In this document: positions 22,330 through 40,961 of the stretch, piece after piece
How positions within the stretch are numbered: the first letter of the stretch is position 1
How the letters are laid out: each line of letters begins with the position of its first letter
DNA from: Thermithiobacillus tepidarius DSM 3134
GTDB taxonomy: Bacteria; Pseudomonadota; Gammaproteobacteria; Acidithiobacillales; Thermithiobacillaceae
Reading direction: 5' to 3'
NCBI RefSeq assembly: GCF_000423825.1
Contig: NZ_AUIS01000009.1
Coordinates: 1-64,000, forward strand
Length of the DNA stretch: 64,000 bases
Notes under the pieces: model-generated
Database searches by the model: none
Told to the model about the DNA's origin: nothing
What the model saw: only the letters and a program-made list of their open reading frames with translations
Made by a program: the position numbers and the translations under genes

Positions 22330-22786
22330 TACAGAGCACCACGTTGCTCAATTGGGTCTAAACACCGTAGAGCTAAGCGACGGCGACTGTGCGTGGATTA
22401 GCTTTCATGACATAGCAGCGGGGTAGAGCTCATGCGGTGCAATCTCAAAATGACGGGCACGCTGGTTAGCTTGGGCTTGGGCGCTGAACTCTTGCTCGTG
22501 GCCGGCCTGCTGCGCGTGGACATTGGCGAACGGGTCATTTGTGGTCTGTATCGGCCGGGCTGCTTCCAGCCCGATTGCTGGTGGACCTGGTGCGTACCAT
22601 ACAGCCGGAACGGCAGGTGAGGTGGAGCATCGCGTCCCATGTCCGAGTGCGCGGTGATCCCTGATTGTCCTGGAAAACTGATCGGTAGGGAATGGGACGG
22701 AGTGGTAATAAATTTAACATAATATACATTATACGAAATCGAGAATCAGACGAAGGTTGCGCCGACTGCGCAGCGGCCGCCGTGCT
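22330..22786. other. Intergenic stretch without a supported gene
   Basis: About 460 bases between arsR and the HTH gene. A 62-codon plus-strand frame (22432-22620, MRCNLKMTGTLVSLGLG, Cys/Trp-rich end) has no good RBS and no recognisable family. Around 22703-22740 the sequence becomes very AT-rich and holds a dyad ATAAT-ATAC-ATTAT, which looks like a promoter or operator region for the terminator-led transcript that follows. I see no tRNA or known RNA fold. Confidence 0.4.
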
Positions 22787-34379: not shown

Positions 34380-34516
34380 CATATTATACCTCCTGCTTAC
34401 TGTGACGCTTCAAATCCGCTTCGTGAAACTTTGAGACAGAAGGATCGACAGTGCTTAATCATCTGATTCTCTAGGCATTTAGTCGGATGGGATCAAAATG
34501 GAGGAGGTATAATATG
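34380..34516. repeat. 15-bp inverted repeat flanking 107 bases, upstream of the Tus-like gene
   Basis: Perfect inverted copies: CATATTATACCTCCT (34380-34394) and AGGAGGTATAATATG (34502-34516). The right copy contains the likely -10 (TATAAT) of the tus-like gene. The 107 bases between hold no gene. Either it is a small TIR element (no target duplication seen) or two oppositely oriented protein-binding sites. In E. coli a Ter site overlaps the tus promoter, so Tus binding is a specific possibility. Confidence 0.75.
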
Positions 34517-34546: not shown

Positions 34547-35437
34547 ATGTCATCGCAGGACACCATGTTGCGCATCCAGCTGGAACAGGCCATGCGACAG
34601 TTGGAAGGGGCACTCGGACGGCTGCTGCAGTCGGTCTATGCCGACCGTGAGCTGGCCGCCTGGGCTTGGCGGGCGCCGGCGGCGGAAGCCCGCCGCCGGA
34701 TGGCGCTGGTCATCGGCCAGATCGAGTATGAGGACGGCCAAGCGCCCAATGAGGCGGTCACCTTGCCTGGGCTGCTCGGCGCTTCCGCGGATACCCTGAT
34801 GCTGGCCCAGGAACTCAACCAGGCCAAGGATCATCTGCGCTACGCGCTCAAGAGCATGGACGGGCGCAAAGTGGCGGTCCGGGATGCCAGGACCGGGAAA
34901 AGCGTGGACGAGCCCCTGAGCGCCGTCGCCCTGCGCGCAATGGGCCGGGCTCGCCTGCATCGCCTGCAGGCATGGCGGCATTTGGTGGTCTTCGAGCAAC
35001 GACCCGAGCGGCTGGGCTTTACTTGGGCGCATACCCGCAAGGTTTCGCGCCTCCTGCCGGCGCAGGCCGGCGAGCGCCTGCGCAAGCTGGGCGATGGCCC
35101 GCACATCCAGGCCCAGCTGCGCAGGCTGGCGCAGATACCACCGGACGAAGCGCTGGCGGAAGTCCTCGACGCCAGTACCCATGTACGGGCCAACGTGGTC
35201 TGGAGGCAGCAAGGGCAGATCACGCGCAGGCAAGTGCGGGTCGCCCTGCCCCTCCTTTATCCGGCCCGGCGCGGCGAACCCTTGCCCGTCTTCTCGGGCC
35301 TGCCCGAGGAACGCGGGCCGGACCCGGACCGCCTGCGGCGCATGGACGTGCGTTTGGAGGACGAACCGTTGCTGCCCTCCATCCACGTGCATCGCTACCT
35401 GCCGGAATTCAGGCAAGGCAGCGACAACGGACACTAG
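34547..35437 (+). CDS. Tus-like DNA replication terminus site-binding protein
   Basis: A 296-residue protein, near the 309 residues of E. coli Tus. Colinear similarity runs through the middle and end: LPGLLG at 73 matches LPGVLC of Tus; LHRLQAWRHLVVFEQRPERL then GFTWAHTRKVSRLL (137-170) match LITLNAYRTLTVL and FGWANKHIIKNL; and EPLLPSIHVHRYL near the C terminus matches PLRLIIPRLHLYV. Tus binds Ter sites and blocks forks from one side by holding the helicase. Homologues outside enterics and plasmids are uncommon. The ATG follows CACGGAGATGGCGC. A TATAAT lies 33 bases upstream, inside one arm of an inverted repeat. Confidence 0.72.
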   Translation: MSSQDTMLRIQLEQAMRQLEGALGRLLQSVYADRELAAWAWRAPAAEARRRMALVIGQIEYEDGQAPNEAVTLPGLLGASADTLMLAQELNQAKDHLRYALKSMDGRKVAVRDARTGKSVDEPLSAVALRAMGRARLHRLQAWRHLVVFEQRPERLGFTWAHTRKVSRLLPAQAGERLRKLGDGPHIQAQLRRLAQIPPDEALAEVLDASTHVRANVVWRQQGQITRRQVRVALPLLYPARRGEPLPVFSGLPEERGPDPDRLRRMDVRLEDEPLLPSIHVHRYLPEFRQGSDNGH

Positions 35438-40103: not shown

Positions 40104-40148
40104 TTGCCCTCCCCTGCCATCGGCATCGCCGGGAGGCAGAGGCCCGCC

Positions 40149-40961
40149 CTATTCGCCCACGTGCAGGAGCAGGCCGCGCCGCCGCGCCGTGTGGAAGGCG
40201 GCCAGGAAGACGGCGATGCCGATGGCCAGGTAGAGCGCATTCAGGGCCACTGCGTTGAAGAACAGCTCCGTGCGGAAGACGTGTTCGAGCATGACCGCGC
40301 GCATGCCCTCGAAGACGTGGCTGGACGGCAGCAGCCAAGCCAGCGGCTGCAGCCAGTCCGGCAGCACGCGGATGGGATAGTAGACGCCGCTCACCGGCGC
40401 CACGGCGAAGATGAGCGCCCAGGCCAGGCTCTCGGCGCCCAGGCCGTAGCGCATCACCAGCGCCGCCACCAGGAGGCCGATGGCCCAGCCCATCACCAGC
40501 AAATTGCTGAAAAAGGCCAGCAGGGGCAGCCCCATGCCGAAGATGGAGTAGTGATAGAGCAGGATGGCGAGCACGGCGGCCCCGCCCACGCCGATCACGG
40601 TGCGGATGAAGCTCACCACCAGCAGCGCCGTCACCAACTCATAGGGGCGCAACGGGCTCACGAAGAGGTGGCCCAGGTTGCGCGAGTACATCTCCTCGAA
40701 GAAGGCCAGCGAGACGCCGAGCTGACCGCGAAAGAGGATGTCCCAGAGCAGCACGGCGGCCAGCAGCAGGCCCGGCGCCTGCGCCACCCAGGAGCTGGTG
40801 CTGACCAGGAATTGGCTGATGAAGCCCCACAGGATCATCTGCATGGTGGGCCAGTAGACGAGCTCCAGCACCCGCGGCCAGGAGTTGCGCAGCAGATAGA
40901 CATGGCGCAGCACCATGGCGTGGATGCGACGCGGGGAAAAGACCGAGGCGGGCGCGCTCAT
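40149..40961 (-). CDS. ABC-2 type transporter permease
   Basis: A 270-residue protein with six membrane helices of the ABC-2 type: ELVYWPTMQMILWGFISQF, LLLAAVLLWDILFRGQL, LSLAFFEEMYSRNLGHLFV in the form SLAFFEEMYSRNLGHLFV, then YELVTALLVVSFIRTVIGV, LAWALIFAVAPVSGVYYPI and LYLAIGIAVFLAAFHTARR. It forms an exporter with the ATPase encoded upstream, whose stop overlaps its start by 4 bases. Substrate unknown; such pairs export drugs, lipids or polysaccharides. Confidence 0.85.
   Translation of the reverse strand: MSAPASVFSPRRIHAMVLRHVYLLRNSWPRVLELVYWPTMQMILWGFISQFLVSTSSWVAQAPGLLLAAVLLWDILFRGQLGVSLAFFEEMYSRNLGHLFVSPLRPYELVTALLVVSFIRTVIGVGGAAVLAILLYHYSIFGMGLPLLAFFSNLLVMGWAIGLLVAALVMRYGLGAESLAWALIFAVAPVSGVYYPIRVLPDWLQPLAWLLPSSHVFEGMRAVMLEHVFRTELFFNAVALNALYLAIGIAVFLAAFHTARRRGLLLHVGE

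Follow-up and report, generated by a model that had tools for sequence, protein, structure and literature searches.

Opposed Ter-like sites upstream of a divergent tus-like gene: a candidate fork trap near the chromosome terminus of Thermithiobacillus tepidarius

A perfect inverted repeat directly before a tus-like gene in Thermithiobacillus tepidarius raises the question of whether it is a pair of replication terminator sites, a regulatory element or a small mobile element. The window, meaning the whole 64-kb stretch of DNA that was analyzed, contains the arms CATATTATACCTCCT and AGGAGGTATAATATG (34380-34516), which are complementary at 15 of 15 positions and separated by 107 nt, just as the original prediction had described. 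The distal arm, a predicted Ter-like site, occupies 34380..34394 on the minus strand, where it reads AGGAGGTATAATATG, the exact inverse of the proximal arm. The proximal arm, also a predicted Ter-like site, occupies 34502..34516 on the plus strand, and the non-coding spacer (34395..34501, no strand assigned) lies between them. TATAAT is found within both arms, and the right-arm copy (34508-34513) is 33 nt 5' of the ATG at 34547. This fits the proposal that the right copy holds the likely -10 of the gene, but no good -35 was seen for it and, therefore, a promoter at the proximal arm is only likely and has not been shown.

Exact inverted repeats of at least 15 nt, spaced 25-360 nt, were expected 0.017 times per window in dinucleotide shuffles of the whole 64 kb, and no A+T-rich repeats of such length arose in the window shuffles. 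The window also holds a second exact inverted repeat, a G+C-rich pair of 16 nt (40116-40131 and 40211-40226, 79 nt apart); thus, the case for the pair does not rest on repeat length only but also on its A+T-richness, its intergenic, promoter-proximal position and its conservation. The 137-bp element occurs once, and the 15-mer twice, in the 2,958,498-base genome, all at this locus. Ten genome-wide matches to the 15-mer were found at 3 mismatches, which was not above the reversed-pattern control, and Ter-like copies of the window motif were not enriched genome-wide over that control. A search for copies facing the terminus, proposed as a check on the Ter reading, yielded none beyond the control. 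No further close copies of the sites were found on the window contig, scans of genome_contigs and viral_contigs gave no close relatives, and there were none in phages. Inverted repeats at both ends of a non-coding spacer could mean that a 137-bp element (MITE) has inserted 5' of the gene. Such an element should be present in dispersed copies, whereas this one has no other copy in the genome, which argues that the pair is not a MITE. The flanks, GTGACCTAC and CATTGAAAC, differ, confirming that there is no target-site duplication.

The ORF that begins 30 bp 3' of the pair (34547..35437, plus strand, 296 aa) was assigned as a divergent member of the Tus family (PF05472) using Pfam Ter, plasmid Tus proteins and a profile comparison with the PDB. 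Its Pfam Ter score was 20.1 bits (E 3.5e-4), below the curated cut-off of 22, and the Pfam model also fails on many divergent relatives. A family profile of 14 relatives matched E. coli Tus in the PDB (1ecr/2i05) with an E of 7.9e-8 over profile positions 10-277 of 285, which upheld the naming of the gene as Tus-like. Plasmid homologues, many of them annotated 'DNA replication terminus site-binding protein', showed ~24-37% identity. Judged from these sequence comparisons, ORF 34547-35437 is a genuine homologue of Tus, although a divergent one. The residues of the C(6) pocket (E. coli F140, H144, G149 and L150) could not be matched because the alignment is ambiguous there, and single-sequence structure prediction of the protein gave an unusable model (pLDDT 38). 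Among 369 Gammaproteobacteria genomes, tus-like genes were detected in 25 with the divergent-member profile (E <= 1e-5) and in 9 with the Pfam Ter model and, therefore, the Tus family is under-annotated. Within its own order (31 sampled genomes, two families), the gene was found only in the window genome and in G001.

G001 is the sole other sampled genome of the family and belongs to another genus; its Tus-like protein is 44% identical to that of the window. Directly 5' of its tus-like gene is a pair, TTATACCTACTCATAAT and ATTAGGAGTAGGTATAA, with 89 nt between the arms, including a counterpart of the distal site. AGKAGGTATAA is common to the window and G001 arms in the same orientation, and in the G001 genome the exact motif occurs only within the pair. 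The alignment of the two spacers did not exceed the best score among 200 shuffles. Arms that are conserved across genera around unrelated spacers also speak against a MITE, and we consider that explanation virtually ruled out. The window genome (G000) has one extra exact AGKAGGTATAA beyond the pair, in coding sequence on another contig. This third exact AGGAGGTATAA (contig C43) was rejected as a Ter site, since a one-mismatch copy in apparently the same gene of G001 explains it by coding conservation. Also, a tyrosine-recombinase fragment and an Xre-type antitoxin gene come after the tus-like gene in G001 (L015 2325-3337), which suggests that it arrived on a mobile element.

Next, 48 distinct tus and tus-like loci (37 first, then 11 new), located on plasmids, chromids and chromosomes, were surveyed. 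An opposed inverted pair was present upstream in 20 of them: the window, G001, two Methylophaga, Flagellatimonas, Thioalkalivibrio, Azotobacter, four Pseudomonas (frederiksbergensis, aeruginosa P8W, pCAR1.3 and p4782_002), two Pseudoalteromonas, G127, G373, G207, G158 and, from a single genus, G203, G309 and G059. In the 37-locus set, the observed length of most pairs was reached by 0-1 of 300 dinucleotide shuffles; judged only by exact length, the pairs of G001 and the two Methylophaga were less well supported (5, 9 and 37 of 300 shuffles). The P. frederiksbergensis pair covers the annotated start codon. No upstream pair was found at the remaining 28 loci, which include E. coli, Aeromonas and several Vibrio and Halomonas plasmids, and at several of these the tus-like gene abuts or overlaps the upstream gene. 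When three plasmids were scanned whole, no close match was found outside their own pair. Since the pair is the sole close match on these plasmids, and since two-site traps are known, as in Edwardsiella tarda (PMC8707476), the lack of further copies in T. tepidarius does not refute a Ter function. The pair of the Thioalkalivibrio plasmid is not at a skew switch. On the 147-kb Flagellatimonas plasmid (NZ_CP092105.1; L087-L094), GC skew is positive throughout and drops to approximately half close to the Ter-like pair at 89.5 kb, a pattern resembling replication in one direction. A Neptuniibacter plasmid (L073 2616-2707) carries a 13-nt inverted pair, GAGTACGCTGTAT, upstream of its tus-like gene, with no recognizable Ter core.

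The gene-proximal arms were aligned without gaps on G(6), using 16 non-window arms including E. coli TerB and leaving out L153 and L154. G(6) and T(10) were present in all 16, with T(8) at 88% and A(9) at 62% of the weight. The window and G001 arms have GGTATAA(T/G) in the same register, and the window core shares G(6), T(8), T(10), A(11) and A(12) with E. coli Ter but differs at positions 3-5. It reads GGTATAAT, as does that of L152 (G373), and does not meet the enterobacterial core, GTTGTAAC. In each of the 18 pairs with an alignable core (18/18), the proximal arm is sense and the distal arm antisense, and E. coli TerB before tus, AATAAGTATGTTGTAACTAAAGT, is sense as well, in the same orientation as the proximal arms. 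A Ter site should have a G(6)/T(10) core in fixed orientation to tus, and this was the case with a register that we chose by eye. With a pooled position weight matrix, the window arms did not rank first in their contig (7.6 vs 10.8). The G(6) side of E. coli Ter is the non-permissive face. By that rule, the non-permissive faces of the pairs would look inward, which is the polarity of a trap, and that of the distal window site is predicted to face rightward. Assuming that the E. coli face rule holds, the locus has the opposed terminus sites with inward non-permissive faces that a fork trap needs.

TATAAT is also a -10 hexamer and the core could, therefore, reflect a promoter. With a perfect TATAAT in each arm, the repeat could be two divergent promoters or the site of another regulator, and its likeness to Ter would be due to the hexamer. 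The identity of 15-23 nt is longer than a -10 element, though, and there is no divergent gene upstream of the window pair for a leftward promoter to serve. Also, the site sequence varies with the tus-like lineage around an unchanged layout and an invariant G(6)/T(10), which is what a protein paired with its cognate site would produce. These points make the promoter explanation improbable.

The position of the pair on the chromosome was inferred from dif and KOPS. GC skew in this region is weak and gives no useful signal. A near-consensus dif site, ATTTCGTATAATGTATATTATGTTAAAT (22712..22739, minus strand), was the sole match in a dif search of the genome. KOPS polarity switches around it, with motif ratios of 6:1 to the left of dif and 4:21 to the right; the switch falls within 20.7-25.3 kb of the contig. 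The sole dif match and the KOPS flip place the chromosome terminus within the window. The pair lies 11.7 kb away from dif; by chance, ~0.8% of positions would be this near. Both Ter-like sites are right of dif, and so sites flanking dif were not found. On contig 1 of G001, KOPS polarity switches at 264-272 kb, ~80-87 kb from the pair at 351 kb. No canonical dif was found in G001, and there was no clear canonical site in the other chromosomal tus carriers. The tus-like gene is directed away from the KOPS switch in both the window genome and G001, and E. coli tus is likewise directed away from dif.

The Pseudoalteromonas chromids carry additional copies of their site. The repeat upstream of the chromid tus is GTAWGATGTGTTC, and 17 matches with at most one mismatch, 14 of them exact, were found on three chromids of 0.86-1.32 Mb (W05-W07; L127, L128 and L129). 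Every exact copy lies no more than ~11 kb from tus, and two one-mismatch matches are farther out, both on W05. The copies less than 11 kb upstream of tus are antisense (4, 2 and 6), except for one sense copy in each of the first two chromids, which sits directly 5' of the tus start codon. In P. piscicida, a sense copy is just 3' of tus and the proximal copy is antisense, which breaks the promoter layout and keeps the inward-facing order. In two of the three chromids, repA is just past tus and, thus, the antisense copies face a fork that leaves ori2 one way. In a published study, replication of these chromids was mostly unidirectional, and a Ter search with the E. coli consensus had failed (PMC7858055). 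The GTAWGATGTGTTC clusters are strong candidates for Ter sites, and their polarity would fit unidirectional replication from the neighboring repA/ori2.

These copies also bear on whether the pair could be an operator only, with two Tus-like sites that regulate the gene, and on some replicons a divergent neighbor too, without fork arrest here. The pairs are at the tus-like gene and overlap its likely -10, the upstream gene is divergent on several plasmids carrying the pair, and the pair is unique per replicon. All this suits an operator, whereas the centre-to-centre spacing of about 90-330 bp gives no fixed looping geometry, the window lacks a divergent gene and its pair is placed beside dif. 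In addition, the extra Pseudoalteromonas copies are kilobases from the tus promoter and mostly of one polarity, suggesting that such sites have a role beyond tus regulation; fork arrest accounts for them better than regulation of the gene by itself. A purely regulatory pair remains possible, but we think it unlikely.

Close relatives of this layout are known. R6K terR consists of two inverted Ter sites tens of bp apart that stop both forks, and R6K carries no adjacent tus and uses the host Tus. The window pair is a close inverted site pair like terR, but with an adjoining tus-like gene. In Bacillus subtilis, opposed TerI and TerII are upstream of rtp. This gene is autoregulated (PMC10331603), giving the same combination of an opposed terminator pair 5' of a terminator-protein gene with autoregulation, though RTP is an unrelated dimeric protein and the likeness is convergent. 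In E. coli, a type II trap, TerB is directly 5' of tus, in the same orientation and over the promoter (PMC8707476), and both loci are terminus-proximal. At E. coli tus there is only one site, with other Ter sites spread round the terminus, in contrast to two opposed sites and no others found in the window. Type I traps likewise have only two innermost opposed sites, one adjoining tus. These flank the terminus tens of kb apart (56 kb in Edwardsiella tarda; 18 kb between the innermost sites of Dickeya paradisiaca, the narrowest cited), unlike the window sites, which are 107 bp apart on one side of dif (PMC8707476). 'Mobile' plasmid tus genes are known in Gammaproteobacteria, and the window protein groups with these divergent plasmid Tus proteins; the part of that source available does not mention paired sites, and Acidithiobacillales are outside its resident clades (PMC6549158). 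Tus, Ter, TerB autorepression, two-site traps (PMC8707476), the opposed terR of R6K and plasmid tus (PMC6549158) are already known. In passages of open-licence papers (PMC8707476, PMC10331603, PMC6549158 and PMC7858055), no prior description was found of Tus-Ter in Acidithiobacillales or of opposed Ter sites as a frequent feature of the region 5' of tus, and earlier ones are not excluded.

We consider it likely that the arms are opposed Ter sites for the Tus-like protein that provide both autorepression and two-way fork arrest, with binding, repression and polar arrest all inferred. Pairs built alike precede its relatives on many plasmids and some chromosomes, suggesting that this one is probably a fork trap and an off-switch. 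The evidence in favor is the exact, unique pair, the Tus homology, the G001 pair, the survey, the constant orientation, the invariant G(6)/T(10), the three plasmids without other close matches, the extra Pseudoalteromonas copies and the dif/KOPS position. Against it, there are no binding or arrest data, 28 of 48 loci are pairless, both sites are on one side of dif, the window arms are not top in the pooled matrix, the C(6)-pocket residues are unmatched and the Thioalkalivibrio pair is off the skew switch. The original prediction of an opposed Ter-like pair over the tus-like promoter has, thus, gained comparative support from G001, 18 further loci, the core register and the distance to dif; this is support by comparison and not proof. 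On the proximal site, the Tus-like protein would cover the -10 region and limit its own synthesis, by analogy with E. coli TerB (PMC8707476). A fork from either side would pass the first complex through its permissive face and halt at the second. The pair would then be a barrier that either fork can enter and not leave, a miniature two-way trap of ~0.14 kb. With dif ~12 kb from the pair, forks would meet and fuse there or nearby, not far from the dimer resolution site. If only the proximal site arrests, forks already past dif would be stopped, which is the polarity of E. coli TerB.

More broadly, it may be, with the balance of evidence tipping neither way, that tus with an opposed Ter pair is a widespread, perhaps ancestral, module that represses its gene, stops both forks and travels on Gammaproteobacteria plasmids. 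It would have been captured at the Thermithiobacillus terminus beyond the three published domestications, as the narrowest chromosomal trap known, and its multiplied Pseudoalteromonas version beside ori2 would account for unidirectional replication. Outside Enterobacterales, most Tus proteins have no known Ter sites, and the rule that an opposed repeat 5' of tus is likely the cognate site may give that of each lineage from sequence alone. The paired sites also bear on whether chromosomal fork traps arose from plasmids (PMC6549158). The locus offers a candidate Tus-Ter pair from a moderate thermophile and suggests that two unrelated proteins, Tus and Bacillus RTP, arrived at one paired arrangement by convergence.
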